A DNA stretch of 64,000 nt, taken from positions 24,173,267 through 24,237,266 of the forward strand of contig NC_056051.1 of assembly GCF_004379255.2 (NCBI RefSeq), written 5' to 3'. A program made the position numbers and the translations under genes. The DNA is from Salvia splendens. Taxonomy: Eukaryota > Streptophyta > Magnoliopsida > Lamiales > Lamiaceae. Positions 12,279 through 62,096 of the stretch are shown here, in pieces (within the stretch, counting starts at the first letter, position 1; each line of letters starts with the position of its first letter). The notes under the pieces were generated by a model that saw nothing but the letters and a program-made list of their open reading frames with translations, had not been told where the DNA came from and made no database searches.

Positions 12279-12546
12279 GAGCATCCGCAACGGTGGCGAC
12301 GGTCACCACCGCCGTCCGCGCCGCTGCGCTCGCGCCGCGCCAGCAAGCAGCTGACGTGGCGGCACGGGATTGGGCAACGGCATAGCCGTTGCCTTCAAAA
12401 AAAAATTTTATTTAAAATCGATTTTAATTAAAAAACCGATAAAAAAAAAATTTACTTCCCAAAAAAATTATAACCGTTTATTACTGTTTCTTACACTTTT
12501 TTTATTTTTTTTTATTTCCCCCCCCCCCAAAATACACACTTTCATC

Positions 12547-12554
12547 TATAAATA
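12547..12554 (+). promoter_or_regulatory. TATA box of Harbinger copy A
   Basis: TATAAATA followed by CCCCC, about 125 bp before the ATG at 12678. The same box sits at the equivalent place in copy B (61804-61811, minus strand). Confidence 0.65.
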
Positions 12555-12677
12555 CCCCCACTTTCACACCCAAAAATTCACATCAAACTACACAATTCTC
12601 ATCTTCATTCTCCAATATCAATTCTCATCTTCATTCTCTCATATCCATTTTCATCTTCATTCTCTCATACCCTAACA

Positions 12678-13685
12678 ATGTCCGGCCAAGGCGATGACAA
12701 CCCGCCCTCTCACGGTTGGAACCCCCAATGGTTCGGGGGACAACTGTTTCCTAGTCCGGAAACGGAATATTCGGCCCCTCCTCTCACCCAAGATTCGGCC
12801 GTTCCGGGTGGCTACCGGCCATACCCAATCGACGACCAAGGTGCCTCCGAAGGGCGATACGGGTGGACACCGGAGCCTAGGTCGACCGCCCCTTCCCAAA
12901 CTCCGACTCCTCCTACTCGCGCCGGTGTCCGCACACCGTACACTCCGGCGGAGATGGATAAATTGTTCAAGGCGTACTTCGAAATCTCCGAAGATGCGGC
13001 GGTTGGCACGAACCAATCCGGCGATCACTTTTGGTAGCGCGTCTCTCGCCGGTACAATGCAAACCGGCCGCCGGGAACGATCGAGCGCAACGAGAGTATG
13101 GTGCGCAACTGCATCGGCCGAGCCAACGAAGAAATTGGCAAGTTCAATGGCTATTTCCTCCAGGAGTCGCGGAATGCCGGGAGCGGCCGGAGCGAGGTCG
13201 ACATCATCACTGCCGCGCTGAGCACCTACCAATCCTTGAACGGCAAGTCGTTCAAGTACCTCAACGTTTGGCAGGAAACGCGGTTCCACCCGAGGTATAT
13301 GGGAGGCGTAACATCCTCCTCTAGCGGCTCCTCCAAACGGTCAAGGTCGGTATCCCTATCCGACTCCGGCTCTGAAGAAGTGGCTAGCCAACTCGCCGGA
13401 GCTAACTTGGGTAGCCCCGACGCCGGACCAAGCGGTTCCCAACGCCGACCGCAAGGAAGGAAGAAGGCGGCAGCCGACCGCCGGCGCTCCGCGACTCCAT
13501 CGGCCCCCGCCCCCGAACCCGCACCCTATGTTCCACCTCCACCCCCGAACAACTCGTTGTGGGCCCTTTTGGCCCAACTCAATATGGCCGATAGGTCAAC
13601 TATGACCCCCACGCAACTTTAAACGCACGAGGACATGATATTGGGTCTCAAAAAACAATTGGGGTTGGTGCCGCCGGATGCGTAG
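12678..13685 (+). pseudogene. Harbinger ORF1 Myb/SANT-like protein, two premature stops
   Basis: One reading frame runs from ATG 12678 to TAG 13683-13685 (335 codons before the terminal stop) without any frameshift, but it contains TAG at 13035-13037 and TAA at 13620-13622. Comparison with copy B shows the first was TGG (Trp) and the second CAA (Gln). The product would have a Pro/Ser/Gly-rich N-terminus, a Myb/SANT-like domain around 'YTPAEMDKLF' (about residues 91-190) and a C-terminal 'SLWALLAQL' helix region. Such proteins are the ORF1 partner of PIF/Harbinger transposase and are often mislabelled 'glutathione S-transferase T3-like' in plant databases. They normally bind DNA and help nuclear import of the transposase. 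Confidence 0.8.
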
Positions 13686-13714
13686 TCTTCATCGGGTAAT
13701 ATTAGCCGATAATC

Positions 13715-13815
13715 ATGTAATTTTTTATTTTTAGGAGTTTAATTATGTAATTTTTAATTTTTAGGATTTTAATTATGTAATTTTTAATTTTTAGGATTTT
13801 AATTATGTGTTTTTT
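13715..13815 (+). repeat. Short AT-rich tandem repeats in copy A
   Basis: A unit around TTTTTAGGATTTTAATTATG is repeated about three times. The complementary array occurs at the equivalent place in copy B (about 60570-60640). Confidence 0.7.
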
Positions 13816-14231
13816 ATTTTATTTGTAATTTGTAATATTTATTGTGGGTTTTTAATGAATTTTAGTATTATGGAAATGTTTTTGTGTAATTGAATTTTAA
13901 ATTAATTGTGCTCGTCCTTGCGGAAGAGCACAACTGTGGATGTTGTGCTCTTGCCAGAGAGCAGGCAGAAAAAGTGGGATCGGGCCCACAACCGTGCCGC
14001 TGGCAAGAGCACGGTTGTGAATGCTCTAATGGTGATTAAATTTTACAACTACTTTTATTATAAAGTGTACCTTTCTCCTTGGGATTAATAATCCAACTAA
14101 AGTAGTTGGGGGCGTGTCACGTGTGGGGGTTGAAATTCTATATAACTCCCAAATAACTAAAAAGAAAATTGTCTACAACATTTTCAATGTTTTTACATCG
14201 TGGTGTTGATAACAAAATAAATATTATACTC

Positions 14232-14473
14232 CCTCCGTCCGTCCCTCTGTAATAGATGCGTTTCATTTTGAGCACTCGTTTTAGAAAAATTATAATAGAT
14301 AGTTAAAGTGGAGAGAATGTAAAGTAAAAAAAGATAATAATATAGTTAAGAATCTCCACTATATTATTCTTTCTCTTATTTTACATTTTCTCTATTTTAA
14401 TTATTTATTATTTTTTTTAAATGAGTGCTAAAAATGAAACGTATATACTACAGAGGAGAGGGACGGATGGAGT
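14232..14473. mobile_element. Stowaway (Tc1/mariner) MITE
   Basis: Starts CTCCCTCCGTCC and ends GGACGGATGGAG, with TA on both outer sides. The two arms are long, nearly perfect inverted repeats around AGTGCTAAAAATGAAACG, so the whole element can fold into a hairpin. It is non-coding. Confidence 0.85.
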
Positions 14474-14475
14474 AA

Positions 14476-15103
14476 TATAATAGTAAGAATTAGTGGGCAC
14501 TCCTACTTATTTATTTAAAACAGCCTAAAGTATATTCCTAGTCTTCTATACCTTACAAAAATAAAGTATACGTGAGCCAAAATAATTGTCAAATATATCA
14601 ATTCAAGCAAGTCTTAATCATTGTTTGGAAGCCTTCAAATTGGACCAAGAAGAATTGAATGCTGCATTTTATTCGTGGATTAGATATTTGCCACTCTTAG
14701 ACCATATCGTGTCTTTCATGTTAATTATGGTCAAACATGTCACAATCATTCTCCCTAATTGGTTTTATTAATTACGTCTACTAATATAGTAGTACTTGTT
14801 AATTATTCAATGATTTGGGTAAAATATTACTCTCTTATGGATACATTTTTCTAATTTAAGTGATAAAATTAACAAATAATCTTTTAAACTAACCAAACGA
14901 TGTCGTTTTAAAGTCGTCTTACTAATTTTAGACAATGGCCGGGATTTTATTTTTCAACTTCGTTTGTGTTCTCATTCACATTCACAAGTAACAAGTTGGT
15001 TTATTAATGTTTTCTAAAATAATTAATATAAACAATTCTTAATTGATAATAAAAGCTCTTTTCAAAAACCGAAACTATACTTTATAATCTCATTAATATA
15101 ACA
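14476..15103. other. Intergenic, no gene seen
   Basis: AT-rich sequence between two Stowaway elements; short ORFs only. Confidence 0.5.
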
Positions 15104-15572
15104 CTCCCTCCGTCCACGAAAAATAGGACACTTTCATTTTCTGCACTTGCTTTGAAAAAATGATAATAAATACTCCATTCGTCCCGCTTTAGCAGTCTCA
15201 GTCACTTTTGAACACTCGTTTATAATAAATAGTTAAAGTGAAGAACTTGTAAAGTACGAGAGAGAATAACGTAGATAAGACTCTTCTCTATATTAGTCAC
15301 TCTCTTACTTTACTATTTATCCACTTTAACTATTTATTACTACTATTTTTACAAAATGAGTGATTAAAAGTGACTGAGACTGCTAAAGCGGGACAGAGAG
15401 AGTTGTTAAAGCAGAGAGAAAGAAAAGTAAGAGAGAGAATAATATAGACAAGAGACTTCTCAACATTATTCTCTCTCGTACTTTATTTTTTCTCCACTTT
15501 AACTATTTATTATCATTTTTTTAAAACAAGTGCAGAAAATGAAAGTGTCCTATTTTTCGTGGACGGAGAGAG
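15104..15572. mobile_element. Stowaway MITE interrupted by a second MITE
   Basis: Outer arms CTCCCTCCGTCCACG (15104) and, inverted, CGTGGACGGAGAGAG (to 15572) share the following block with ATAGGACACTTTCATTTTCTG. The arms are separated by an unrelated inverted-repeat element (15173-15402), so the outer MITE was present first. Confidence 0.8.
15173..15402. mobile_element. Inner Stowaway MITE
   Basis: Termini CTCCATTCGTCCCGC and, inverted, GCGGGACAGAGAGAG; subterminal block TTTAGCAGTCTCAGTCAC is repeated inverted. TA precedes the left end. Confidence 0.75.
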
Positions 15573-17460
15573 TATCGTACATGCTTAATTATCACGTGTA
15601 TCTATCTAAACTCCTTATGCAAATTGAATTTCAAGATTTATTTAATCAAATTTAGTTTAAAGGTTACTTCAAAAAATCTAACTAAACTAAATTCATAACA
15701 TTAGGCCAAACTTATTGTTTCAAATCAGAGACCGTTTTTAATTTTTTTAAATTTCCTCTATATTGTTTCAAATAATTAGATACCATATTAAGTGGTAAAA
15801 ATTTGTGATTGGTCAACGATTACGGGTTAAATAAAGGAAATATTTTCACCAGATACTTATTAATAGACACACATAAATGCTAGTAAGTCGTAGGAATCGA
15901 ATCAACGACATTTATTTAGTAGCGATTTTAAAGCTTTGAAATGATATGAAACAATTAATCATAGCCGACAAGCAAGGAAAAATGAATGTTTTCCTATTTG
16001 CATATGCTTAACTATTTTGACTTCTTAATGTTTTAAATACTTTTGAAATTATTTATATGATGCATGTTATTGGTTTCGTTGAAAACAAGTAGTAATATTC
16101 AAACTTGAAAGTTGAAAACGAGTAGTAAGAGTCAATTATGTGTGTTTGACTTAGAAATTAAGAGGAAAGCTATGCTGTCACAATCTCAGTGCTCCACTTC
16201 AATGAAGAATATTTTCCTCTTAGAGAGAGATAGATATATTTCCGATTTTAGAGTATTAATTGTGAAGGATATGATTTTACTAAATATATATAGAAAATAT
16301 GTTCATTAATTTTGAGGTACAGCACAAATTGTTTGGCGAAATTTGAGATATACAGTGAAAAATAAAAATATGGTCACAAACATTTTGGAACTACTATAAT
16401 ATTAAATGCGATTATTTTGATGTTATATTGCATATCATAACTGATACTAACAAATAACAATATTCATTAGTTTGAGTGAAAGTTTGTTACCAATTAAATT
16501 GGCTATAATTTGATGAAATTAAGTTGATGGAAAATGCTTGATTTTCACTTTCTATTTTTAATATTCGCACCATTAATTTTAATTAAAATGTTCGTGTAAA
16601 CTCAACGTATATAATTTCAAAATCTTTGGTATTATGAACCTTTAATGGATAATCATATTCTACATATGTAAAGGCGATAGGTTTTAATGAATAGATTAAT
16701 ATTTAAAATTCAGAACATTTTTTTATTAAGATAAAGTTTAGGATGCAAATTAAAAGAATTTATAAATATAAATATTTTTTTCTTTTTTAATTAAAATATT
16801 TATAAATTTGAGTAGTTATTGTTCGTGCATAAAGTATTAATTAAATTCAATAATCCTAATATTAATTTACACAAATAAAACGTAACTTTCCTAATAAACG
16901 TTTTCAAGAGTATAAATGTCCATTAAAAAAAGATCGAGTAATAATTTTTGACAAGATCAGATAAACTCAAGTTCAAATTCCTCACTTATGTCATAATATA
17001 TCGAAATATATTCCTCTAATATATCGTATTTAATGAAAAAATTGCATCAAATAAAAACCGATATACTACATTTTATTAGTGCTATTTAGTAGTATTAGAT
17101 GCAAATATTACTAATTAAAAAGCTTAGCAATCTATCTCCATCATTATTTTATTCTCAAATCGATCCAAGTCTAATCTGACTTTAAGTAGCGATAAAAATC
17201 CAATTACCCTCTAATTTATTTATATTAATACTAATCTTCACATTTGCAATTTCTTATAATAAAAATGCACTTATAACTCATAAAAAAATAAAATTGCGTC
17301 TACTTTTTAATAACAACTAGTATATTTTGTTTTTACCGATTAAAACAAAATATTCTAAATAAATTCTTACATTAGCTAATCTATTTTATTTTATCTTTTC
17401 GAAAACAATTTAAATACAGAATATTATGTACATTAACCTTATCTGTATTTAAAAATCGCT
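15573..17460. other. AT-rich intergenic DNA
   Basis: No supported gene, repeat boundary or RNA found; the right end grades into the promoter of the WD40 gene. Confidence 0.5.
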
Positions 17461-17470
17461 TTATATATCA
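17461..17470 (+). promoter_or_regulatory. Likely TATA box of the WD40 gene
   Basis: TTATATATCA lies about 30 bp before a purine- and CA-rich leader (AGAGAGAAAGAG, ACACACAAC) that fits a plant 5' UTR. The leader appears to be split by an intron, 17818-18274 (GTGAGC...TTTAAAG). Confidence 0.5.
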
Positions 17471-18358
17471 TACATGTAGAAAGAGAAGGGAGAGAAAGAG
17501 AGAGAAATTGGGGCAAAATTGCAGAGGCACGCACTGTTACACACACAACACACACACACAAACGGAGCTCAAAATCTCGTTTCTCGGGCCATCCATTCAC
17601 GGATATCAAGGAATTTCTGCTTTTTCTCATTTTCCATTTTTAGTTTTTTTTTGCCACCCCCTTTTCTCCTCCCTTAATTTTTCCATGAGCTTTGATTTTG
17701 CTCGAATTCTCATTTTCTTCAATGGCCAGTCGTCTCTGTTGCACCCTTTAGAGAGAGTAACCAAACCCCTTGATCCATCTGTTCCAATTCGATCTATAAA
17801 ATCTGGATTCAACCCATGTGAGCAAATCTTCCATTTTTATGTGTTTTCATTGTGGTTTCCTTGATAATGTTTGTTTAATTCGTTAATTCGTTGTTTGGGG
17901 TTTGAAAAGTCGTGTTTTTGGTGATGGGTTTTCGGTTTCTAGGTTAAATATATCCGGGTTTCTGGAAAGTTTGATTTTGATTTCTTCATTTTTTTAATTG
18001 GTATTGTTGTGGGAGCTAATTGTTGTGGAAGGGCCAGTTACAATGTGTGTGGATTGGGATCCATGTTGGATCCATTGTTTATGTTTCATATGTTTAGTTA
18101 TTTAGTTTGAATAGTAATTGTTTAGTAAGTATATGTTCTTGCTGTTGTGGTGTTTCTATTTTAATATTGTTTTATAGTTTTGCTGAAAACCTTGGATGTG
18201 GTGCTTGCTGGTGTGCTTGTTTACTAAGCAAATATTTAATCACTTAATTTGTGTTTCTCTCTGTTTGTTTAAAGGTTTTATATTGGAAAGCAATAAGGCT
18301 TTCAAAAGCTTTTGAAGAGGGGTTTCTCTGTCTTTCCATGGCCTGAGCTTGAACAGTC

Positions 18359-21064: not shown

Positions 21065-21870
21065 CACGTGGCGCCTTTTGCAAACAATCTACCTCTTTAT
21101 CGTATGTGCCTGAAAATTGATTGCACAATTGGTTGGCAAGGAAACCCTATCCGTTAAATTGCCACATATTTTTGGGGGTATTAGAGGATAGTGACCGTTG
21201 GGCCCGTTCATTCATTAGAGACGAGACAGGCAATGACAGCTGGCTGGAGTCAAAATGTTCGAATTCTTGAGAGAGCTGAGGTTTGCTACACTGCCCCATC
21301 TTTTCGTTGCTGGGCTTAATTATATCGACGATTCTTTCATTTATTAAGTCTCTGCTTGCCCATCTGGGAAACCACGAGAAAGAAGCGGTGTCTGCTTGAG
21401 ATTGATTTGCATTATGGAGGTGCTCGTGGGGCCTCGTATAGCCTGTTCCATACGTTTTATACGTGGTGGGGCTGGTGGCCGGAATCTGTCGTACGAAAAG
21501 TAGTGGGGAATGGTTTCTTTGTGGCTGCATAATAGAGTTTTCGTTTGTCTGCCATTTTTATTCTTCATGGAAAGAAAATAGTGAAAGGGATTGTAAAGCA
21601 TCCATTTCTGAGACTAATTGCACCCCTTGTGTGAGTTTAGTGCCGTCTCCCGTGAACCGTTGGATGTGTGCTGTCTCGACCGACTCGTCGATGCTGCTGC
21701 GTTCGGGAGCTGTGGATGATGTTGGTCGCTGAGATGGTTTTATTATGAGTGTAAAATTTTAAGGGATTTGATAGTTTTGAAAAGAGAAAGGAAAGGGAAA
21801 AGTTTAGATGTTTATGGTTACATTTGATGTAAATAGATTTGTGTACAGTTGTATATTTTTCCAACTTATA
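21065..21870 (+). other. Probable 3' UTR and flank of the WD40 gene
   Basis: Non-coding sequence with higher GC than the later intergenic DNA, ending in T-rich stretches near 21780-21870. The exact polyadenylation site is not visible. Confidence 0.45.
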
Positions 21871-22963: not shown

Positions 22964-22975
22964 CAAATAAGAAAA

Positions 22976-25532: not shown

Positions 25533-26952
25533 CTAACGGGACACCATACGGATCCAATACACCATGAAGACAGCGAGAGAATGGCTCCATCTTACGCGAC
25601 GCACAAACAACGGAAACATGATCGCAAGGAAGATACATAAACCAAGGGTACCCACAGCGAATGGCACGCTCCTACCTACGATGGCAATGCCAGCTGCAAA
25701 AGACAGGGTCATCAGCATCAGGGTCACGGGGATCAAGGCTGCCGATAACTCGAGGGCAGCAGCAACCAACCGGTCATCCCCTAGGTGGCCCAAGGTGAGA
25801 AATATCACGGCTATAACCGAAGTACAGATGGCTAACATATCGGATGAGAAGAAGGTAGCGGCTACAATGTGCTTCCAGCGACCAATGTCAGGGTCGGAGA
25901 CGAAATCCTCCACAGGCACGGCAAACGCAGCCCCAACAGTAACACAAGTAAACAGGGTCACCACCACTAAAAATGAGCCCAATGCTCTCCTATTCACCTT
26001 TAACCGACTCTCAGATCCATCAACCAAACCACGCTGGGAAACAAAAACAAATCAATTACATTTCATGCTTGTCAAATTATTAATCTAATGCCTAATTACC
26101 ATATCAATCTGATGCCTAATCACCATATCAATCTCACAATAAAATATCTTAAATAACAAGCAGCAATCATCACTAATTCTATCAATAAATATATATATAT
26201 GTACGGTAACCAATAAAAATATGCAAGCATTCTGATGGATTCAATTTTGCAATTCATCTCTCAATAACACAGACTAGCGTAGTAGTAGTATTTTCTAAAT
26301 TACCTAATTTAAATATTCTACATAACAGCCCAAACAAATTACTCTACAATGCAAGGCCCAAATATTCTAATTATGAGATAACAGCCCAACAATTTAAATA
26401 CTAGCATGTTACTTCATGGAGTATAAAAATTAGGCACTTTAATTAACTAATTTCAAATAAAAAAATAAAAATCGTAACCTCTTCCGCAACGATCGGAGCG
26501 GTCGGAACGCCTTCCGCCGGAACTCCCCCAGTCGCAGCGCCTCCAGCCGGAACTCCCCCAGTCGCAACGCCTCCAGCCGGAACTCCCCCAGTCGCAAAGC
26601 CTCCAGCCGGAACTCCCCCAGTCGCAAAGCCTCCAGCCGGAACTCCCCCAGTCGCAACGCCTCCAGCCGGAACTCCCCCAGTCGCAGCGCCTCCAGCCGG
26701 AGCGGTCGGAACTCCTCCAGCCTGAACGGTCGGAGGAGTAACCTGTTCCGCATCCGGAACGATCGGAATGCCTCCAGTCGCAGCGCCTGCAGCCGGAACG
26801 GTGAGAACGCCTCCAGCCGGAACTCCCTCAGTCGCAACGCCTCCAGCCGGAACGGTCAGAACGCCTCCAGGCGGAACTCCCCCAGTCGCAACGCCTCCTG
26901 CCGGAGCGGTCGGAGCTCCTCCTCCGATCTCCTCGATCTCGGAGCTTGCCAT
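25533..26952 (-). CDS. PGG-domain membrane protein with N-terminal Gly/Pro/Ala/Val repeats
   Basis: Two exons on the minus strand, 26952-26479 and 26033-25533, joined in phase 0 (GAG|GTTACG ... CCCAG|CGT), encode 324 residues. Residues 1-12 are acidic ('MASSEIEEIGGG'). Residues to about 158 are low-complexity repeats of a GGVPAGG.AT decapeptide. The second exon has four hydrophobic segments beginning 'RALGSFLVVVTLFTCVTVGAAF', the form of the PGG domain found at the C-terminus of ACD6-type ankyrin proteins. No ankyrin repeats are present, which is unusual for that family. An in-frame ATG at 27093 exists, but the intervening sequence is CT-rich and leader-like, so the start at 26952 is preferred. 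Function unknown; a membrane location is inferred. Confidence 0.7.
26521..26700 (-). repeat. Coding minisatellite, six 30-bp units
   Basis: Exactly six 30-bp copies, each AACTCCCCCAGTCGCA-xxx-GCCTCCAGCCGG on the plus strand, encode the decapeptide repeat of the PGG protein. Related but degenerate copies continue to about 26930. Variable bases in the six units, in order, are gcg, acg, aag, aag, acg, gcg. Confidence 0.9.
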
Positions 26953-27294
26953 GAGAATCACGTAGAAGATGTTGTTTGAGAGGGGAGAGAGGAGATGTCT
27001 GAGAGTGTTTGAGAGGGGATATGAGTGTTTGAGAGATAGAGAGATGGCGACATAGAGATTTTCTTCCCCCATCTCCATCAAATTATTTTCCATTAATGGA
27101 AGTACTCAGATATAGTAATTAGGAATTCACAATAACAGGAAGAAGATGGTAACACTATACCAATGAAGATACACAGAATATGATATACCAATGGAAGTCC
27201 TATACCAATGAAGATAGTGATGTACTTTTTCCAAAATTGCAACATCGCTTGCCGCATTTTATAAGAATAAGTACTACTATGAAATAAGACCAAC

Positions 27295-27435: not shown

Positions 27436-28097
27436 ATGTAGAAGCTAACAGTGACAGTTACATCACTAACTAGAAAAGGCACTAAAACTTTAGTTTACAT
27501 AAGTAGTAAACGAATCCCAACACACATATAGTACTAATGTACCCACTGCTGACCTGAGGCAACTGTTGCTTGCTTTCCTCAAATAGCTTCTGGAAATCGC
27601 AGTTGTGCTAAAAAACGTCTTAACACTATAGGTATACAAAAATTTATTACTTTTGTTTAATTATTTCTTGCATCAAATTCATAGTATTTGTTCGGGGACG
27701 AAATTCATGTTCAATAGCTTAAGCGACATAATTTTACTTTCATCTATAGTACTAAGACCATCCACTACGGGTCTCGCCGGCGTCTCGCGTCTCATCCCCG
27801 CGAGACGGGACGCCGGCGCGACGCGTTGCAGCCTCCATCTCGTCCCGTCTCGTCCCGCGTCTCGTCCCGGCGAGCCACGAGACAGGCTGTCTCGCCACGC
27901 GCCGAGGCAACGTGGAGCAACCCGGCGTCGTGCGTGACGCCCACTCGCCGGCCCGCGAGTGGGCGTCGTCACGTGCTGACGCAATAAATATTTTTTTAAA
28001 AAAAATCGAATTTAAATAAAAAAAAATTGTAACGGTAATAATACCGTTTTTTTATTTTTTTTATAATTTTTTTGATTTTTTATTAATTTTTTTACTC

Positions 28098-28105
28098 TAT
28101 AAATA
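28098..28105 (+). promoter_or_regulatory. TATA box of Harbinger copy C
   Basis: TATAAATA about 105 bp before ATG 28209, the same arrangement as in copies A and B. Confidence 0.6.
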
Positions 28106-28208
28106 CTCCTAAACTCATCCTCATTTCACACACAACTACACATCTATTCTTCCTATCATCTAAATTTTCTCTCAAATTTTCTCTCAAATTTTCATAAACC
28201 AACTCAAG

Positions 28209-29396
28209 ATGTCCGGCGACGGCGACGGCAACTACGGCGGTTCCGGCGACGGCGGGTGGGATCTCAACGCGTTCGGCGATTGGGAGACAATGATCAACAC
28301 ATTGGGCGGTTCCGGTTCGTCAACCCCTGGGACTCAGGGTTCGGCGACGCCGATGGGGTACCAACCACCCAATTTTGACCTTGATGCATATGTCCGTCCC
28401 TCCGCCACGCGGTATTCGCAGGGATTATCCCAGATCCGGGAGGATTTTCCCTGTGGCACTGGCGGTGGAGGTGGCACTGGCGGTGGAGGTGGCACTGGCG
28501 GTGGAGGTGGCTGAGGCGGTGGAGGTGGCACTGGCGGTGTACAACCCCAGGCGGGCGAGGACGAGGAGGAAGAAGAAGAAGAGACCCTTGGCCGGCATCC
28601 GTACAGCAACTTCGAAACGATGGCGGTGTACAACGCCTGGATCACGGTCTCGTACGATCCCATCGTCGGGAATCAACAAACCCGGAAGTGTTTCTGGGAA
28701 AAGGTCTGCGAGGTCTACCACCAGATAAAGCCGAAAGGCTCCCGCAAGCGCAAAGTTAAAATGCGCCGCTCTCACTTTGACCGAGTCGACCGACAGATCA
28801 AAAAATTCTGCGGCATCTACTTGACTGAAGAGGCGCGCTACCAAAGCGGTGCCACGGCCACCGACATTTTGACGTCCGCTTTGCACGCCTACTACCAGGA
28901 CGAGGGTCATCAATTCAGATTTGTTGATGTTTAGCAGGCCGTCAAGGACGAGGAACGGTGGGCCGGAGGTTTCCGCTCCAGCTCGGGCTCAACCTCGAAG
29001 CGCATGAAGCATACGGTGAGTGGCCAATACTCGTCTGGTGGTGACACCGATGACATCAGCCAACCTGAGGCTGAATCCCGGGAGTTTGCGGGTACGGTCG
29101 GCGATGCTGGAGGATCCGCGCGTGGGCGCCGTCGGCCGCAAGGGACAAAGGCGGCGAAAGCGGCTAGAGCAAGGAAGGGCCGAGGCGAATCAAGCCAGCC
29201 GGCCTCGGGCTAGCGGGGAGGCTCAGACACACTTATGGTGGCGTACATGACCGCCACAATGGCGGACACTTCCCACTTCTCGTACGCCCAATTCACGGCC
29301 TGGTGGAACAGAATTGTTGCTATGGCAGCACAACTTGACCTTCCGACACCCCCTAAACCTCGACCGCCTCCAGAGGATGATTCGCCGGCGGAGTAG
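28209..29396 (+). pseudogene. Harbinger ORF1 Myb/SANT-like and NAM-associated-type protein, three premature stops
   Basis: One uninterrupted frame from ATG 28209 to TAG 29394-29396 carries stops at 28512-28514, 28932-28934 and 29211-29213, with no frameshift. The product would have a Gly-rich N-terminus, (GGGGT)n repeats, an acidic run, then a SANT-like domain ('YSNFETMAVYNAWITVSYDP', about residues 132-220) with a basic 'KGSRKRKVKMRR' segment. A Lys/Arg-rich linker and a C-terminal 'FSYAQFTAWWNRIV' helix follow. It is related in layout to the intact protein at 40816-42318. By that comparison the second stop replaces a Trp codon. Confidence 0.75.
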
Positions 29397-29723
29397 TTTT
29401 TTTTTTTATTTTGTGTGTTTTTTTATTTTGTGTCTTTTTTATTTTGTGTGTTTATTTAGTTTGTGTGTTTTTAATAAAGTGTGGTTTTTAATAAAGTGTG
29501 TTTGTTTAAATTGAATTGGGTAGAAAAAAAAATTCTAAATGAAATTGAATGAATAGTAATTAAGGGACGGTATAGAGACGGTTAAGAGACGGAGCGTTGC
29601 AGGTTCCGTCCCTTAGTTAAGGGATGGAGGAAAAAAGGACGGTGGGGCCCTCAAATAGTGCTCAAATAGTAGTTAAGAGACGGTTTAAGTGACGGTATAG
29701 AGACAGCGTAGTGGATGACCTAA

Positions 29724-38490: not shown

Positions 38491-38493
38491 TAC

Positions 38494-40484: not shown

Positions 40485-40815
40485 GAGCATCTCCAGTGGG
40501 CGGACATCCCACTAGTACATCCACTAGGACATCTCAAAAACACCTTCTGCCACGTCACTAGGACTTCCCATCCCACTGCCACGTCACTAGGACATCCCCT
40601 CCTATGTCCGCCCTTCCCACTAGGACATCCCGCAATAAAAAAATCACAATAATTTAATTACGTAAAAACGGAAATATAATTTTGACACGGAATACGGGAA
40701 ATCAAAATACGGGCAAAAATACATATTCATAAAACATAAAAAACACATAGTTAGAAAAAAGCAAAATACATAGTCATTCAAAAAAAAGAAAAATACATAA
40801 TCCAACATCCCCGGC

Positions 40816-42318
40816 TCACTCCGCGCTGTCCTCGTCGCCCGTGCCGCCCCCGTCGCCCGTGCCGTCACCGTCACCCGTGCCGCCCCCATCGTCCCCTCCG
40901 CTAATCTCGGCGCCATCATCTCCAATGGGGGGCATCCCCAAATCGCGCTGACATCCATCGATGACATCCTTCAGCATCCTCTTGTACAGCGGATCGGTCG
41001 TGCTATGCCACCTATGCATGGTTCGGACCAAGCTTGTCGTTAACTGCGCGCGGGCGAGGCGGTCGATATCTTCTTGGGGAGCAGGGGCCTCCGATTCGAC
41101 CTCGAACGACCCGCTACCGCCGCTGGTTCCCCTAGCCCTCCGCTGCGCAGCCTTTTGCCCAACCGGGCGACGACGGCGGCGAGAGTCTGATTGCGGTAGC
41201 GGGGACACTTCGTCGGCTTCCGGGAGCTCGTGCGAACCAGCACTGCTGCTATATTCACCGGAAGCGTTGATCTTCGTCCGCTTCGCCCAGCCCGATTCGA
41301 CTCCCCCACAAAACTTTGGGGAATCCTTCACCACGAGAAAGGCCTCCCACTGGTCAAATTGTTTGAATTTCAAGGCTTTGTCAGGGTACTGAGCAAAGGC
41401 ACGGTTCCGGACATCCTCCTCGGACATACCGCTGCTTGCCTGGCGGAGGTTGTTTTGGTAGAGGCCAGCAAATCGACTAAGCTTAGGCCTCAACCGCTCC
41501 CACTGTTTCCGGCACTGTTCGGGAAGGCGACGCTTCGCCCCAGCCGGTTTGTGTGTGTGGTAGGCTTCAGCGATCCGATGCCACAGTCTGTCAATATGCT
41601 GGTTGGCACCGACATAGGGATCCTCGACAATTGCAATCCAAGCCTTCGCAAGCGCGACGTTTTCCCACTGGCTCCAGATCGTCCTCTTTCCCGTCTCCTC
41701 ATCCTCCTCCTCTGCCACCGTTCGTGAGGAAGACCCTGGGGCTTTCCCCTTGCCCTTGCCACGTCCCTTCCCCCTGCCCCCGCTCATATCATCGGGCGTC
41801 TGCCTGACTGGAGATATCCCCAACTCCTCAAAAGAGAAAGTGTCTATGCCGGTGAACTGAGTATCCGGAACATAAGTGGAAGGGGTATCAGTATACTGCA
41901 TATCCACAACCGGTCGATAGACATCGTCCGCTAGTGGTTCAGGACCCCTGCCACCCCCTCCCACATGCATCATCCCCGGCATCATCCCCGCCATCATCCC
42001 CGGCATCATCCCCGGCATCATCATATTTGGGGTCATGCCCCCCATCATATTTGGGGTCATGCCCCCATCCCCATCCCCGGCATCATCATATTTGGGGTCA
42101 TGCCCCCCCATCCCGGCTGCCCTGGGCATCATACCACCCATACCACCCATCTGTCTCATCCAATTGTACATATAAGGGGACATCATCCCACCCATGGCCC
42201 CCATCTGTCCCATTCCCGGTACCGTTGTCGCATTTCCGCTTACGTTTCCCTCCAGGTCGATGGGAAACGCCTGAGTCTGTGACTCGCTCGTGGCCGGGGA
42301 GTTCCTATCGTTCTCCAT
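40816..42318 (-). CDS. Harbinger ORF1 Myb/SANT-like protein, intact
   Basis: A 500-residue intronless frame. ATG 42318 is chosen because it is the first ATG after the TATA box at 42412-42405; the longer frame to 42516 would start upstream of that box. Layout: Ser/Thr-rich start, Met/Gly-rich repeats ('GMMPGMM', 'GGMTPNMM', about residues 40-125), Gly/Lys/Arg-rich basic stretch, a Myb/SANT-like domain ('WSQWENVALAKAWIAIVEDP', about residues 220-330), a NAM-associated-type region ('FKQFDQWEAFLVVKDSPKF'), a basic patch ('RRRRRPVGQKAAQRR') and an acidic Gly/Asp-rich tail. Proteins of this kind are ORF1 partners of PIF/Harbinger transposase. No stop or frameshift, unlike the other three copies, so it may still be expressed. 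Confidence 0.8.
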   Translation of the reverse strand: MENDRNSPATSESQTQAFPIDLEGNVSGNATTVPGMGQMGAMGGMMSPYMYNWMRQMGGMGGMMPRAAGMGGHDPKYDDAGDGDGGMTPNMMGGMTPNMMMPGMMPGMMAGMMPGMMHVGGGGRGPEPLADDVYRPVVDMQYTDTPSTYVPDTQFTGIDTFSFEELGISPVRQTPDDMSGGRGKGRGKGKGKAPGSSSRTVAEEEDEETGKRTIWSQWENVALAKAWIAIVEDPYVGANQHIDRLWHRIAEAYHTHKPAGAKRRLPEQCRKQWERLRPKLSRFAGLYQNNLRQASSGMSEEDVRNRAFAQYPDKALKFKQFDQWEAFLVVKDSPKFCGGVESGWAKRTKINASGEYSSSAGSHELPEADEVSPLPQSDSRRRRRPVGQKAAQRRARGTSGGSGSFEVESEAPAPQEDIDRLARAQLTTSLVRTMHRWHSTTDPLYKRMLKDVIDGCQRDLGMPPIGDDGAEISGGDDGGGTGDGDGTGDGGGTGDEDSAE

Positions 42319-42404
42319 TAAAAGTAGAAATGAAATTTGTAGTAAAAGAAGAGAGAAACTTGTTAACAACAAGTGGTGCAAATGAAATGAAGTTCTACGA
42401 GCCG

Positions 42405-42412
42405 TATATATA
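42405..42412 (-). promoter_or_regulatory. TATA box of Harbinger copy D
   Basis: CTATATATAC on the minus strand, about 90 bp before ATG 42318. Confidence 0.6.
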
Positions 42413-42437
42413 GGGTTTAAAAAAAATAAAAAAAATT

Positions 42438-42620
42438 CGGACGTCCGAGCGGGACTTCCGACCCTTGCCACAGTGGCGGACGTCCGCCCGCCCGTCGCAG
42501 GGACGTCCGAGGACACCCGACGTCCTCACGGGACGTCCGTATCCGACCCTAAACGCCACAGTGGCGGACGTCCGGGTCGCCCGTCGCGACGTCCGACCGG
42601 ACGTCCGACCGGACGTCCGC
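42438..42620. repeat. Nine GACGTC palindromes in the element end
   Basis: GACGTC, usually within GGACGTCCG, occurs nine times in about 180 bp. GACGTC is the C-box core bound by plant bZIP factors. Within the element these are probably transposase or ORF1 binding repeats. Confidence 0.8.
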
Positions 42621-42833
42621 CATTGGAGATGCTCTTATTATTATTATTATGTATTAGTTAACTTAATTCAAGCATTCACCTTTACGGATTTTCTCTCTCT
42701 AAACACACACAGAGACTCCACTTTCTCTCTCTAAAACTCCCTGTTTAGGGTTTCAGGAGGCGCCGCTTTTGAATTAATACCATCCAGGAGTGAACTCTTC
42801 ATTCGCTCTATCCCCTCCTCGACTTTTCCCCAG

Positions 42834-51517: not shown

Positions 51518-52240
51518 TACATTTTTGTTAATGTTTTTACACTCAATGTAAAAGCAATTTATGGTTCCAATGTTTGTATTCTGTTTTTTTTTATTTTTTA
51601 TCTATAGGTTTCATTGGTGTGTGTACTTAAACCTATTCTATTACAAATAAAGAGATATTATACAAATATTTTATAGTTTATTATCTTTAAGACTAAAAAC
51701 TTAATGGAGTAATATTAAAAAACTTAACGGAGTAGTATTTAAAAACTTAATGGAACTAAAAACTCGGAACAACACGTTCAATTACATTCAGTTTGTATAA
51801 GATAATAAGGAAAAACAAAATATCAACAAATAATACTTAAATATATTCAGAAAGTTCAGTTAAAGGATCAATTGAAGACCTGCAAAATCAGTAAAAATTG
51901 CAAAAGGTTTTAAAACATCCCAAACATCGACTCAAATTAAAAGAAATATCATACTTTGTAATGCAAGTTAAGGTTGTTGTTACACACTTCATTTCCAGTG
52001 CCAGAACTTTGAAGATTTTGAGCAGATTCATTCCTAGGTAAACCCAAAAGCCCAGGGTTTTGTAGTGGTTGCGTCATCTGTTGTCGGATCTGTACATCTT
52101 GAATCGTCTAAAGCCTTCCATTATTTCTCTGAGTCTGTAAAATAATAGTACATGAAAGATGTTAGAATATAAGTAAATTTCGAGGATTGGAGAAAAAAAT
52201 TTAATTGTTTAGATTTTAGTCATTTTACCTTAAATCAAAA
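51518..52240. other. AT-rich intergenic DNA
   Basis: No gene supported. It may include downstream exons of the orphan candidate at 52.26-52.62 kb (minus), but I could not join any. Confidence 0.4.
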
Positions 52241-52257
52241 CCAACTTCGGTCTAAAC

Positions 52258-52620
52258 GAATAACTTCTGAACACCTTGAATTGGGGCTGGGGTTTGCGAT
52301 TCTATACCGTCTTCGGTTGAATCGAATAGCTTTTCTGTCGACGACGTCGGTGCTTTGGTCATCGCCGTTAAAAATCGGCGGAGTAGGATGGAAGCTTTAG
52401 AGTTTGTGGTGAGACGGCACAGTTTTGGCAAGGAGACATCGCGATTCAGTCCGTTGTGGTCAGATGTCGCAGTTTACGTCTGTTGATGGCGGCGATTGAA
52501 TCGCCAGAGCTAAAGATCGCGGAGTCTTCGAAATTCTAGGGTTTGTGTGTGTCGACGCCGCTGAGGAGAGAAGAAATGGTGAAAAACTATATTTATATGT
52601 TGTAATAATCAAGCTTAGAA
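52258..52620 (-). other. GC-richer island with a short minus-strand ORF, possible gene or element fragment
   Basis: On the minus strand a TATA-like CATATAAATATA (about 52600) precedes a leader and ATG 52365, which opens a 36-codon frame starting MTKAPTSSTEKLF and ending at about 52258. Base composition differs from the AT-rich surroundings. No family recognised. It could be the first exon of a lost gene or a transposon part. Confidence 0.3.
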
Positions 52621-55600: not shown

Positions 55601-55640
55601 TTCACACACTACACGCACTAACTAACCTAATTATTTCGCT
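52621..55640. other. AT-rich intergenic DNA
   Basis: No gene supported. Two related segments, GTGGGTGGATCCGTTGAAAG near 52995 and GGTGGATGAATCCACTAAAG near 53282, suggest an old local duplication. An ATTTGATCCTTAGTCG-type phrase repeats at about 53690 and 53750. Confidence 0.45.
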
Positions 55641-55902
55641 GATAAAATGGCGAAAATATAGGGTTGTGGATTCATTGCTGTACATATCACAAAATATTCT
55701 GATTCCTGAATCATGGCTTCTGCTCCAACAAGCTCAGGCCTCCACTACCATTGCGAATCTGCCCCCAAAGGAATTGCACGAATTTGAATCTCTAGCACTG
55801 AATCTCGGATTTGGATTCTGGAACACTGATTCTTCCCCTTTTGCACTTTTTTATTGTTGGAACATTTGTTGTGATTGTTGGTTGGAAGTGAAGAAATCGG
55901 GA

Positions 55903-58900
55903 ATGGAGAGATCTAGATCTAAGAGATACTATTATGACCAGGACTATGAATCTGAAACCCTACACTCGCGGAGCAAACCTCGCTACGGCAGCAATTCACA
56001 CGGCGGCGGAGGAGGTCACCATTATGCTCCGAGCTACCGCCGCTCCTCATCCTCCGGTGGAGGAGGGGGGAGAAAGCTGCCGGAACAGGTGATGGGGACG
56101 ACGAACTACCGGATTCTGTGCCACGATGTGAAGGCAGGGGGAGTGATTGGGAAATCCGGGAGTATAATTAAGGCGATTAGGCAGAACACTGGGGCGTGGA
56201 TCAATGTGCACGAGCTGGCTCCTGGGGATGAGGAGAGGATTATCGAGATATCCGACAACCGGGGGCGGAGCTCGGGCGGGAGGTTACCGTCGTTCTCACC
56301 TGCGCAGGAGGCGTTGCTCATGATACATGAGAGGATATTGGAGACTGATGGGGAAGGAGGAGGGTATGGGCATAGTGATGGCTTTGTGGAGGATGAGAAT
56401 GATGTGTTCGGAGGCAGAGGAGGCGGTGGTGGTGGTAATAGAGTCGTGACAAGGCTGGTGGTTTCCCGGATGCATGTGGGGTGTTTGATGGGGAAAGGAG
56501 GGAAGATAATTGAGCAAATGAGGATGGAGACGAATACACATATTAGGATTTTACCGCGAGATCACACTCTGCCACGTTGTGTTTCCATGTCTGAGGAGAT
56601 TGTTCAGGTTCTTGATTGTGTTACACTTTTGGAGCTTTGAGTATTTGTTGAACATGAAAAACCTTATGTCTGAAACGGGGGTCGTAAGACTTCAAAACCA
56701 GAACTTGACTTGAACTTATGATTCCTCAACTCGTATGAATGGTTGAGATGTAACTATGAGGTGATTACAGACACGGACGCCTTCTGAAACTGAGAATGGC
56801 TGCCCTTGTGCAGTAGATTTTGAGGTTTATGATGATGGGATGTAGATTCTCATTGTACTGCTGATGGAGGGGGATGTATTAATGGGATAGTATGCTGCTG
56901 ATAATTTGATAGCATTAATTGGAATTGATGACCAATATTCACATAATCAATAGAAGATCTGGAATCCTATTTGCATGCCATTTGCCTAATTTATGTTTTC
57001 CTGTCTTTACTTAAGATTTTAAGCTTTTCATCCTCTTGGTTTGCATGCCATATCCACACTGCATTGCTTATCTCTTTACTCTGTCATATAGTAGTTGCCT
57101 TGTGGAAGTGCAGGGTTCATTTGACACTTCTTTTTTGTCATGTTTTGCTCGTCCAACCTCTCCACACCCCTTTAAGGACCATATAGCATTAGATGTGAAT
57201 CTAGATGAGAAGCCTGCATAAGATGTTAATATATTTTTGAAACTGGATATATGATTGGCAGTACAGAAAGATTGTGTTATCTTACTATTGTTTTCTCTTG
57301 TTGTTCTATGATCTTGGAAGTAAGGTTTTATTGTGTAACATTACACTAGAACTTGCACAGGTGGTTGGTGACATGAATGCTGTGAAAAGTGCTCTAGAAA
57401 TCATTTCTTCTCGTTTGAGGGAAAGCCAACATCGTGATAGAAGCCATTTTCACAACAGAGTGCAATCACCTGACCGTTTCTATCCTCCAGATGATGATTT
57501 CCATGTCAACAATAGACAATCATCTGCAGAAGGGCCTAGTTTTGGATCTAGATATTCTGGTGGTTCCATGAACAACAATTATTCCTCATGTTCATCTGGA
57601 TTTTCCCATGAGTCCAGACCTGCTAGTGTATCTGATAATGCTCGATCATTTCCTGGCGAGGAACTTGTGTTTCGCATACTATGCCCTGTTCGTAAGGTTG
57701 ATTTTGTTGTTGGGGAGTCGGATGGAGTTATTGATTTGCTTCACAATGAAATAGGCGTCAACATTGATGTATCTGATCCAGTTGCTGGATTGGACGAGCT
57801 TATTATAATCATATCATCTGATGAGGTTAGCCTTCATCTCTCTTAGTAATCACTATGTTGCAAGGGGATCGTCTCTGCTTCCTGGCAGCTTTCTAAACAA
57901 CATTTCAGTTCTACATGTCAATTTGAACACATTTTTTCAGTAACTCATAGCTTTATTTCTTCTGGAATGTCTTGTAAGCTGATTCACACTTGTATGGCTT
58001 TTAGGGTCCTGACGACGAGTTGTTTCCTGCCCAAGAAGCTTTATTACATATTCAAACTCGCATTGTTGATCTTGTTCCAGAAAAAGAAAATATTGTTACA
58101 ACTCGGCTACTTTTACAGTCAGACGAAATTGGTTCTTTGGCTGACCTAGGTAAAATAAGTGGTGTGAGTGTAGAGATTCTGCCGAGAGAACAACGTCCCG
58201 TGGGTGTATCAGGGATGGATGAGATTGTACAGGTTTGTTCTCTATAGTTTTGTTTCTTTGAGGAGCTGGGCTTGCATATGTGTGCTTTTATGAAATATTT
58301 TTTCTTGCTAAATATCTGCAATATTTTACATCCTCGTCTCTCCCGATTGCCTTTGATATGGTTTAATCTCAGCTCCCTTCACATGCATAGTTTTGTAAAG
58401 GATCTATAGATGAATTTTCCTTTTTGTAGCTAGTGTTAGATCAACCTTGGTGCTGCTTGTTGCTTGAACTAATACAATCTCAGACTGAAGGTCCTCTATG
58501 CCGTAGGTGAAAAGATTTCTATAAAATCATTTAACGACAGAACTAATACAATTCTGGCATTGTCATCTTCTTTTTCTTAACTATAGATAGTTGGGGAGAT
58601 CACAGCTGCTCGAGAGGCTCTAGTGGAGGTGACAGCAAGGATTCGGAGTTACATATATCGTGAGTTTCATGAGAAGGATGAACCTGTCTCTCGTATTTCT
58701 GCTCCTAGCCCTGTCAATGGTGGTGTGGAACCAGAGGCAGCTTCAAGAAACAACGCACCTCAATATGTCGAAATGCATGCTGGAAATGGCTATGCTCTTT
58801 CGACCCCTCATAGTTTCTCAACCACTACAACATCACAAAAAGTAAAGGTCAATCATATGCGTTCCTGACGAGTCTCCTACAAAATCTGCTGTTATTGTTT

Positions 58901-59683
58901 GCCTGAATTATTATTTGCTCCATCTGTACCTGTACATGTTTCTATCTCAACGATTCAAGGTTTTCCGAGTTCTGTGCCTTTTGCCACGAACCTGTTATTT
59001 GTTTAGTTTGTAGCTAATTCAATCCATCGCTCTTCAATAAACGAAACCTAAATTTGCAGGATGTGGCCTCCACACCCTCAAATGCCGATCCAGTGAAGCA
59101 AAATGAGAGTGAGCGACGTGAGGATCATCAGCCCAGTATATTGAATAGGTTTGTTCATCTCAATCTCGGTCAAGCTTTCTAACAGTAGAAGCGATCATCT
59201 TGCTTTCAATTCGGTCACACTCATCCTCTTCTTCTTCCGTTTTCCCTCCAGAATCTCTTCTGTACCACTCGTGACAAGAAGCATACTGGAAGTTGTCCTT
59301 CCACCCCATGCAGCATCCGAACTTGCCAAGAAATCAAGAAAGCTCACTTTGATCAGTGAGGTGAGTTTCAGTTCTCTAGTGATCATATTGAGCATATACA
59401 CCATTGCTCCCTTGACATATGTGTTATTTGTGCAAACAGCTATCCGGAGCAACCATGAAACTGGTAGACGACGGACCAGAAGCAACAGAGAAGGTAATTC
59501 AAATATCAGGTACCCCAGAGCAAGCAGAGAGAGCCCAGAGTTTACTTCAAGGATTCATCTTGAGCAGTAAGTCTCTCTCTCTCTCTCACACACACACACA
59601 TACGCAGAAGAACCAGCAATACAATTAGTATCTAAATCTTTTGGGGCATTTCTGTTACTCTTGTTTCAGCTGAAGATGGGTAG
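55903..59683 (+). CDS. RCF3: Five-KH-domain RNA-binding protein (RCF3/HOS5/SHI1 type)
   Basis: Eight exons (55903-56607, 57361-57825, 58005-58232, 58587-58841, 59060-59148, 59252-59360, 59440-59566, 59670-59683) encode 663 residues. The start 'MERSRSKRYYYDQDY', a Gly-rich stretch and five KH-like domains match plant RCF3. KH1 ('YRILCHDVKAGGVIGKSG') and KH2 ('TRLVVSRMHVGCLMGKGG') have canonical GxxG loops. KH3 ('VFRILCPVRKVDFVVGESD'), KH4 ('TTRLLLQSDEIGSLADLG') and KH5 ('RSILEVVLPPHAASELAKK') have altered loops. In Arabidopsis the protein acts in the nucleus with the CTD phosphatase CPL1 in stress-gene repression, mRNA processing and miRNA precursor processing. The frame is open 79 codons upstream to ATG 55666, but 55903 matches the family. 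The exon 4 donor could also be 58847, adding two residues. Confidence 0.88.
59571..59602 (+). repeat. Compound (CT)n(CA)n microsatellite
   Basis: Lies in the last intron of the KH gene, immediately after the splice donor. Confidence 0.9.
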
Positions 59684-60347
59684 GCATGATCAGTGTATGG
59701 TGGGACACAGCAACAATTTTCGTGGATAATCTGAGTTATTAGGGTGGTTTGTAGCAGAATGTAAGGAAATGTGATTTAGTTGTTTGGAACTTAATGATAA
59801 GTACTATACATTTAAGGAATCTACTTTCTTGTTTGTTGTTGTTATGTTAAGCCCTGATGGCTGCTATTTTTAAGTGTATATTTTTATTCTTTCCTTTTTT
59901 CCCTCAACCTAAATTTACTACACATGTATCCACACATTGAGCTATATATACCACAATTCACAAATATGAATGCATAAATTTCGTGCAAAAGATGAAGATT
60001 GACTATCATTGTTCACACAAGTGGACATTGCATTAGTCTTAGTTTGAATGTGAGTTTTCAACTTGAACTTGACCGACCATCAAATTCAGATTTGTAGATG
60101 AGGGCTACTCATTTTTGGATTAGCCATTGACATTTGATTCCACTTGATGCCCAAATATGACTTTCAACTAGAAACTTCGAAATTTCAATCTCACCATCTT
60201 ATCTAATCTTTTAGATACTCCATTGAATGGTTGGATTTTATATGTACCTTATAAATTTGATGATCTTAATAATAATAATATGAAAATTACATATGATAAA
60301 ATATTTTCGTTGAATCTCTCTCTCTCTCTCTCTACAAGATTTGAGCT
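59684..60347. other. 3' UTR of the KH gene and AT-rich DNA
   Basis: No gene. A (CT)n run at 60316-60333 lies just before the Harbinger-type element. Confidence 0.5.
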
Positions 60348-60662
60348 TTAGAGCATCCACAACCGTGCTCTTGCCAGCGGCACGGTTGTGGGCCCGGGCG
60401 GTACTATTCATGCCTGCTCTCTGGCAAGAGCACAACACCCACAACTGTGCTCTTTTGCAAGGACGAGCACAATTAATTTAATATTCAATTAAACATAAAC
60501 ATTTCCATAATACTAAAATTCATTAAAAAATCACAATAAATATTACAAAATACAAATAAAATAAAAAAGACATAATTAAAATCCTAAAAATTAAAAATTA
60601 CATAATTAAAATACTAAAAATTAAAAATTACATAATTATTGGCTAATATTACCCGAGGAAGA

Positions 60663-61673
60663 CTACTCATCCGGCGGCAACAACCCCAATTGTTTTTGGA
60701 GACCCACTATCATGCCCTCGTGCGTTTGAAGTTGCGTGGGGGTCATAGTTGACCTATCGGCCATATTGAGTTGGGCCAAAAGGGCCCACAACGAGTTGTT
60801 CGGGGGTGGAGGTGGAACATAGGGTGCGGGTTCGGGGGCGGGGGCCGATGGAGTCGCGGAGCGCCGGGGCTCGACCGCCGCCTTCTTCCTTCCTTGCGGT
60901 CGGCGTTGGGAACCGCTTGGTCCGGCATCGGGGCTACCCAAGTTAGCTCCGGCGAGTTGGCTAGCCACTTCTTCGGAGCCGGAGTCGGATAGGGAAACCG
61001 ACCTTGACCGTTTGGAGGAGCCGCTAGAGAAGGATGTTACGCCTCCCAGATACCTCGGGTGGAACCGCGTTTCCTGCCAAACGTTGAGGTACTTGAACGA
61101 CTTACCGTTCATGGATTGGTATGTGCTCAGCGCCGCAGTGATGATGTCGACCTCGCTCCGGCCGCTCCCGGCATTCCGCGACTCCTGGAGGAAATAGCCA
61201 TTGAACTTGTCAATTTCGTCGTTGGCTCGGCCGATGCAGTTGCGCACCATACTCTCGTTGCGCTCGATCGTTCCCGGCGGCCGGTTTGCATTGTACCGGC
61301 GAGATACGCGCCACCAAAAGTGATCGCCCGATTGGTTCGTGCCAACCGCCGCATCTTCGGAGATTTCGAAGTACGCCTTGAACAATTTATCCATCTCCGC
61401 CGGCGTGTACGGTGTGCGGACACCGCTGCCGCGAGTAGGAGCTTGCGGAGGTTGGGAGGGGGCGGTCGGCCTAGGCTCCGGTGTCCACCCGTATCGTCCT
61501 TCGGAGGCACCTTGGTCGTCGATTAGGTATGGACGGTAGCCACCCAGAACGGCCGAATCTTGGGTTTGAGGAGGGGCCGAATATTCCATTTCAGGACTAG
61601 GAAACGGTTGTGAACCGAATCATTCGGGGTTCCAACCGTGGGAGTCCGTAGGGTTATCGCCTTGGCCGGACAT
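60663..61673 (-). pseudogene. Harbinger ORF1 Myb/SANT-like protein, one early stop
   Basis: The full frame runs from ATG 61673 to the stop at 60663 (336 codons before it) with a single TGA at 61620-61622 (codon 18). Copy A has TGG at this codon. Downstream, ATG 61589 still opens 308 intact residues beginning 'MEYSAPPQTQDS', which include the whole Myb/SANT-like domain ('YTPAEMDKLFKAYFEI', 'GDHFWWRVSRRYNANRPPG'). The 'YLNVWQETRFHPRYLGG' region, a Lys/Arg patch and the C-terminal helices are also present. A shortened protein could therefore still be made. Relation and likely role are as for copy A. Confidence 0.78.
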
Positions 61674-61803
61674 AGTGATGTTGTAGGGTATGAGAGAATG
61701 AAGATGAAAATGGATATGAGAGATTGAAGATGAGAATGGAGATGAGAGAATGATGATGAGAATTGTGTAGTTTGATGTGAATTTTTGGGAGTGAAATTGA
61801 GGG

Positions 61804-61811
61804 TATTTATA
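61804..61811 (-). promoter_or_regulatory. TATA box of Harbinger copy B
   Basis: TATAAATA on the minus strand, about 130 bp before ATG 61673, matching copy A. Confidence 0.65.
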
Positions 61812-62096
61812 GATGAAAGTGTGTATTTTTGAGGTAAAAAAATTTTAAAAAAATTAAAAAGTGGGAAAAAACGGTTATAAACGGATATAATTTTTTTGGG
61901 AAGTGATTTTTTTTTTATCGATTTTTTTAATTAAAAACCGATTTTTTTAAAAAAAATTATTTAAACCCAACGGCTATGCCGTTGACGAATGAGGGCGCGC
62001 CACGTCAGCTGCTCGCTGGCACGGCGCGAGCGCAGCGGCAGCGGGTGGCGTCCGTGCCAGCGGTGGCGAGCAGCGCCACCGTTGCGGATGCTCTTA

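Follow-up and report, generated by a model that had tools for sequence, protein, structure and literature searches.

Short one-gene Pong-like elements in Salvia splendens: ORF1-only families and a transposase-only element with the ends of one of them suggest a split two-protein transposon

PIF/Harbinger transposons are taken to need two genes, ORF1 and a transposase gene, normally within one element. In the rice and zebrafish elements the ORF1 protein binds the element ends and helps to position the transposase, neither protein being dispensable (PMC2836001). Synthetic Pong elements excise less in yeast the larger they are (R2 0.97), and reinsertion is also poorer for large ones (PMC10288884). 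Single-gene copies have been described for Harbinger-Snek of the sea krait Laticauda colubrina, whose intact copies comprise 269 full, 2,263 transposase-only and 452 Myb-only ones (PMC8437027). A survey of teleosts lists no single-ORF Harbinger elements in that group and places such elements, as then known, only outside vertebrates (PMC9179366). Among the MtPH elements of Medicago truncatula, 22 of 89 have a transposase (accompanied by orf1 in 14 according to Table 2 and in 11 according to the text) and 67 are non-coding (PMC2213677). We analysed a 64,000-nucleotide stretch of the 806-Mb Salvia splendens genome (C20:24173267-24237266, hereafter the window), which contains four elements, E1 to E4, each with an ORF1 gene and no transposase gene, and compared these with a transposase-only element of the same genome, L045, whose ends match those of E2. 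A two-protein jumping gene exists here as short one-protein elements, and the halves may depend on one another for movement; a split Pong-like system, with ORF1-only and transposase-only elements acting in trans, is in our judgement the best reading of the data and a reasonably probable one.

The window was scanned for any 14-bp terminal inverted repeat (TIR) of the form G...C pairing at 11 or more of 14 positions, with an identical TAA or TTA (TWA) on both flanks and a spacing of 100-6000 bp. The scan recovered exactly four elements and nothing else, the same four that a reading of the letters alone (the sequence-only reading) had reported with their TIRs and TWA duplications; widening the span to 9 kb added two AT-rich pairs, each more than 7.5 kb apart. 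The chance level for CAT-type pairs in first-order Markov sequence modelled on the window, at a looser 10/14, was 0.2 per window on average (maximum 3 in 300). E1 occupies 12279-14026 on the forward strand (1748 bp, TAA duplication, TIR 11/14) and belongs to the family of E4, which occupies 60351-62093 on the reverse strand (1743 bp, TTA duplication, TIR 12/14); E2 lies at 27756-29720, forward strand (1965 bp, TAA duplication, TIR 12/14), and E3 at 40485-42634, reverse strand (2150 bp, TIR 13/14, flank TTA). The TWA duplication of the superfamily is present in all four with the reservation that E3 sits within a (TAA)n run, so that its duplication is uninformative. The window TIRs read GAGCATCCG, GACCATCCA and GAGCATCTC, and 11-13 of their first 14 bases pair, within the roughly 14-25 bp of the superfamily; the CATC-type start ascribed to them applies generally, apart from one E1 end that reads GAGCATT, and they are not of the Medicago type.

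As had been claimed, each element has its own TATA box, a single TATAAAT or TATATAT with ORF1 downstream of it: at 12547-12553 in E1 (forward strand, element position 269), 28098-28104 in E2 (forward strand, conserved in L045), 42406-42412 in E3 (reverse strand, element position 223) and 61805-61811 in E4 (reverse strand, element position 283). With lengths of 1,743-2,150 bp and an ORF1 gene, E1 to E4 differ from miniature inverted-repeat transposable elements (MITEs), which are short, usually below about 800 bp, and have no coding capacity. Over their full length E1 and E4 have 89% identity, and their flanks and duplications differ; they are therefore two separate insertions of one family, and local duplication of one insertion is out as a source of the cluster, E2 and E3 belonging to other families. 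The divergence between E1 and E4 is uneven, with 17% of sites differing in the 5' region (12279-12677 versus 61674-62093), as against 5.5% for ORF1 and 7.4% for the 3' region; the 5' region may be a mosaic or a fast-changing end.

ORF1 begins 316-453 bp from the left end of E1 to E4 and stops 312-341 bp before the right end, and the five elements that were measured have gene flanks of similar length (316-461 bp before the gene, 311-341 bp after). The gene is at 12678-13685 in E1 (forward strand, 335 codons; a pseudogene with in-frame stops at 13035 and 13620, codons 120 and 315), at 28209-29396 in E2 (forward strand, 395 codons; a pseudogene with stops at 28512, 28932 and 29211, codons 102, 242 and 335), at 40816-42318 in E3 (reverse strand, 500 codons, intact and Myb/SANT-like) and at 60663-61673 in E4 (reverse strand, 336 codons, interrupted in frame by a stop codon at 61622, codon 18). 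The sequence-only reading had given each element exactly one Myb/SANT-like ORF1, which is correct as to number but overlooked the breaks in three of them. The four proteins are homologous: E1 and E4 have 90% amino acid identity and the others 28-31% between families (BLASTP E 3e-16 to 4e-30), in keeping with the three subfamilies proposed, and a profile of E1/E4-family ORF1 matches E2 at 3e-35 and E3 at 2e-26.

All six frames of the four elements (24 translations) were scanned with Pfam at E≤1. The ORF1 matches were to Myb_DNA-bind_6, Myb_DNA-bind_4, MADF, NAM-associated and DUF6818, every one under the curated cut-offs (for example NAM-associated, E 4e-5, in the second open piece of E1 ORF1), and a single Histone match had E 0.29; these sub-cut-off matches, together with the E1/E4 profile, identify the Myb/SANT ORF1 of the PIF/Harbinger superfamily. 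No DDE model was matched in any of the 24 translations at that threshold, confirming the reported lack of a transposase, while the L045 transposase scores E 4e-95 in the same library. A diverged transposase hidden within E1 to E4, an objection foreseen in the sequence-only reading, is ruled out by these scans, and co-option of ORF1 as a host gene is ruled out by the TIRs, the duplications and the many copies. Protein searches returned two partial matches, from Salvia splendens, for E3 ORF1 and none for its conserved region alone as the query; E4 ORF1 returned 11 proteins, of which the five named ones are from Salvia hispanica. In a search of solved structures the one match, to an antibody chain, was weak.

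The transposase-only element (L045:1491-3519; C8:1532790-1534818) is 2,029 bp long, with TIRs GACCATCCACAACG and GGCCATCCACAACG (13/14) and TTA on both sides; it contains one intact transposase gene (418 amino acids; PF04827 E 4e-95, PF13359 E 1e-14), and no ORF1 was found within its 2,029 bp. Upstream of the start codon L045 is 78% identical to E2 over 436 aligned positions, TATA box and leader included; in the 3' region their identity is 85% overall and reaches 94% in the final 235 bp (29486-29720 in E2, forward strand). No nucleotide similarity was found between the E2 ORF1 and L045 transposase genes, and the corresponding ends of E1, E3, E4 and three further ORF1 carriers described below (L004, L012 and L013) are just 41-63% identical to those of L045. 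Judged by these alignments, E2 and L045 have promoter, 3' region and TIRs in common, and the gene between them differs. PF04827, which we take to be the Pong type of transposase, places L045 in the Pong lineage; the window elements have no transposase, and the common ends would extend the Pong type to E2 only.

When L045 was used as a DNA query, 40 of the 40 best-scored copies were full length, at 99-100% identity and on many chromosomes, a likeness that marks the transposase-only element as having multiplied in a burst very recently. A genome search with PF04827 (Plant_tran) gave 14,830 candidates; the best 150 were scored and all lay above the cut-off, 72 of them with the identical score of 319.9 bits, and 61 of the 72 had a 456-amino-acid open frame; L045 is one of the 72. 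A 463-amino-acid group from this search is a first candidate for transposase-only partners of E3 and E4. One copy of the transposase-only element was seen 457 bp from an E3-family copy (C21:21727148-21731773).

Genome DNA searches with the ORF1-only elements were scored for the best 40 copies out of 5,260 (E4), 4,322 (E3) and 6,230 (E2) candidates; these counts are loose figures, not copy numbers, and may overlap between families with common ends. In the E4 family all 40 scored copies were unbroken matches covering 1,662 or more of the 1,743 bases at 94-97% identity (34 exactly 1-1743). In the E3 family 39 of 40 were likewise unbroken, over 1,987 bases or more, and the remaining copy consisted of two adjoining pieces (26 exact; 93-99%). 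The E2 family had 38 of 40 copies of at least 1,883 bases at 87-95% (30 end to end), the two partial ones being a copy in pieces about 190 bases apart and a copy without the first 400 bases. In all, 90 of the 120 best-scored copies, on many contigs, match from the first to the last base of the query, and by coordinates none of the 120 has a transposase-sized gap. Eight E4-family loci, E4 included, were also read as sequence: none has such a gap, all eight show TIRs with the same TWA on both sides, and five of the seven others have an open 336-codon ORF1. On this evidence E1 to E4 appear as members of three high-copy Pong-like families with an ORF1-only layout and not as random deletions. At C2:4020526-4024333 an E4-family and an E3-family copy lie tail to tail with matches overlapping by 5 bases, a composite or a nested insertion.

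A sample of 205 kb chosen independently of similarity, though not random, was searched with the ORF1 profile. It comprised the first 5 kb of C1 and twenty 10-kb pieces from the neighbourhood of 2 Mb on C1 and C2, and an extra 9 kb was added to complete three matches. Four carriers were found. These were L012:332-2418 (2,087 bp, TIR 13/14, TAA on both sides), L004+L023:9029-10948 (1,920 bp, TIR 10/14, TTA on both sides), L013+L022:7916-10560 (2,645 bp, with a palindrome-rich insert and mismatched flanks, TTA versus TAA) and L009, an E3-family copy that has lost its left end; the TWA duplication matches in two of the three completed elements, L013+L022 being the exception. A transposase was found in none of the four, a count that by our own arithmetic is still compatible with a considerable share of complete elements (about 53% as the 95% upper bound). 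The insert in L013+L022 is a repeat rich in CGATATATCG palindromes. In a search with transposase sequences the sole strong match in the sample stretches and the window lay in L001, next to retrotransposon-like sequence: a relative of the L045 gene that is broken, truncated at its 5' end and without ORF1. A 31-amino-acid match in L017 (E 8e-5) from the same search was taken for chance. Two MITE-like relatives were also met in the sample, one of 415 bp (L002:665-1079) and one of 815 bp (L004:8048-8862); both have TWA duplications, and their 14-bp TIRs, GAGCATCCACTATA and GAGCATCTCCAATA, are perfect.

E3 and L009 are collinear across E3 positions 75-2150 at 81% identity, and because they are collinear as ORF1-only elements, that layout is older than their split. 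Their ratio of nonsynonymous to synonymous substitution rates (dN/dS) is 0.32 (bootstrap 0.19-0.53; 230 codons, dN 0.072, dS 0.226). Comparable values were obtained for L012-L013 (0.27, 0.18-0.41), L012-L004 (0.33, 0.16-0.68), L013-L004 (0.33, 0.15-0.73) and E3-L012 (0.42, 0.23-0.62). The purifying selection between E3 and L009 argues that the ORF1 protein was maintained when ORF1 was already the only gene of its element, and selection presumably acted throughout in the ORF1-only form. The proposal that ORF1-only elements are a stable form is upheld by this selection, by the layout of all 120 best-scored copies and by the four sample carriers.

How a split system might operate can be drawn from these features. 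Short elements of about 1.7-2.2 kb, each with its own promoter, would encode either the Myb/SANT ORF1 or the DDE transposase, and the ends of both element kinds would be recognised by both proteins. ORF1 protein from ORF1-only copies would bind the ends of both kinds and recruit transposase made by transposase-only copies, so that each half would be mobilised in trans through the protein of the other. In the simplest form an element of roughly 5 kb would have been split into two halves of about 2 kb, with a gain in mobility. The suggestion in the sequence-only reading that ORF1 works in trans is made likely, on sequence grounds only, by L045 with its E2-matching ends, and its other suggestion was that ORF1 might help its own element to compete for transposase; action of each protein on the other half, equivalent partners for E3 and E4, and a dispensable complete element would be further parts of such a system.

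Several observations weigh against a split system. The matched pair was seen once only, for E2 and L045; between L045 and E1 or E4 there are only short AT-rich local matches (35-105 bp, 73-91%), and no transposase-only partner of E3 or E4 turned up, no aimed search with E3 or E4 ends having been completed. The ages also differ: E2 copies are 87-95% identical to E2 and L045 copies 99-100% identical (best 40 of each), so that joint activity of E2 and L045 is at present a presumption. ORF1 is disrupted in three of the four window copies (two stops in E1, three in E2, one in E4) and open only in E3. The proposed dN/dS check, which was favourable for E3-L009, was less so within the E4 family: its recent copies have a mean dN over mean dS of 0.78 (21 pairs, single pairs 0.44-3.36), not confidently below 1, and E1-E4 gave 0.61 with an interval, 0.34-1.19, that includes 1. 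Lastly, complete elements of the E2, E3 and E4 families may remain in the genome, since only the best 40 copies were scored and ORF1-only queries favour their own kind; the case named beforehand as fatal, that most copies carry both genes, was not seen within those limits (best 40 of 4,322-6,230 candidates per family). Complete two-gene forms may exist elsewhere in the genome as well. Twelve other top-scoring transposase loci (L033-L044) were examined, and four have ORF1-like sequence within 1.5 kb; that of L034 is outside the family homology and that of L037 is on the opposite strand, while L033 (C22) and L039 (C6) have a same-strand ORF1 fragment directly upstream of a PF04827 transposase, in L039:517-2334 partly in one open frame with it, which suggests a two-gene or fused arrangement in that family.

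These last loci lend themselves to another explanation, that an active complete element makes both proteins, the halves being its small passengers by deletion, and that ORF1 is selected in the complete element. The sea krait offers a precedent, with full and solo-ORF copies coexisting (PMC8437027), smaller elements move better (PMC10288884), and complete copies could sit beyond the best 40 scored candidates. A solo-ORF variant is defined by descent from a full parent still in the genome. No complete element with E2, E3 or E4 ends was seen among the 120 best-scored copies (40 per family) or the four ORF1 carriers in 205 kb. Moreover, the selection on ORF1 was measured between two elements collinear as ORF1-only, and the promoter and leader immediately in front of the L045 transposase gene are homologous to those of E2 ORF1. 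We consider such passengers unlikely, though they are the foremost alternative. Still less likely, and indeed improbable, are ORF1-only copies as regulators or cheats, in which excess or broken ORF1 would titrate the transposase or the ends and damp the system, and which would spread as parasites of the transposase-only burst: the ORF1-only families do look large (4,322-6,230 candidates each, a loose figure) and ORF1 is broken in three of four window copies, but the intact ORF1 in five of seven other E4-family copies and the dN/dS of 0.27-0.33 between ORF1-only relatives suggest a working protein. The stops in three of the four frames would equally suit decayed remnants, random internal deletions brought together in 50 kb by chance; with 90 of 120 best-scored copies matching from first base to last, and E1 and E4 separate insertions, we hold this to be very improbable indeed.

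A split Pong-like system therefore stands as our preferred reading. Its stronger form is a lasting bipartite transposon, in which two non-autonomous, separately amplifying types with common ends and promoter persist with no complete element left, in several pairs, the ORF1-only layout being ancestral for whole families; we put this forward tentatively, as a possibility somewhat short of an even chance, and if true it would be comparable to a multipartite virus. If the split reading is true, a high-copy split version would show two dependent parts to be enough for a two-protein transposon to last. ORF1-like genes and transposase genes that stand alone are common in plant genomes, and a split form could explain them. 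It would also offer a case in which to test why systems of two proteins hold together, mobility being raised by small size (PMC10288884). The 99-100% identity of the transposase-only copies makes this genome a candidate for present-day activity. Elsewhere in the window, at 26446-27093, there is a 216-amino-acid open frame with GGVPAGG/GGVATGG repeats and no Pfam match.

No account of ORF1-only elements matched by transposase-only ones was found for any plant in the open-access literature searched, subscription literature being mostly outside the search; solo-ORF Harbinger copies have been published for sea kraits (PMC8437027), and the matched plant halves appear new. Tourist-type MITEs are likewise non-autonomous and have related ends and duplication (as the 415- and 815-bp cases in L002 and L004); the present elements differ from them in length (1.7-2.2 kb) and in having a promoter and a protein gene under selection. 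MtPH of Medicago truncatula is likewise PIF/Harbinger with TWA duplications, and some members have a transposase without orf1; that report lists no orf1-only class, but its search began from transposases, and its TIRs were required to have G(N)5GTT, which those of E1 to E4 lack (PMC2213677). The rice Ping/Pong/mPing system has the same Myb/SANT ORF1 and DDE transposase, with helpers acting in trans; Ping (5,341 bp) and Pong (5,166 bp) have both genes and mPing (430 bp) has none (PMC2836001, PMC9921582, PMC10288884), whereas here there is exactly one gene per 1.7-2.2 kb element. The likeness is closest to Harbinger-Snek of Laticauda, with its multi-copy transposase-only or Myb-like-only copies and non-coding ones too (PMC8437027). 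Those are variants of one element with full copies present, whereas here several diverged plant families are ORF1-only and no full copy was seen (best 40 scored per family); here, too, ORF1 appears selected within the ORF1-only form, and one transposase-only element, L045, matches its ORF1-only counterpart in its ends and has a promoter homologous to that of E2.

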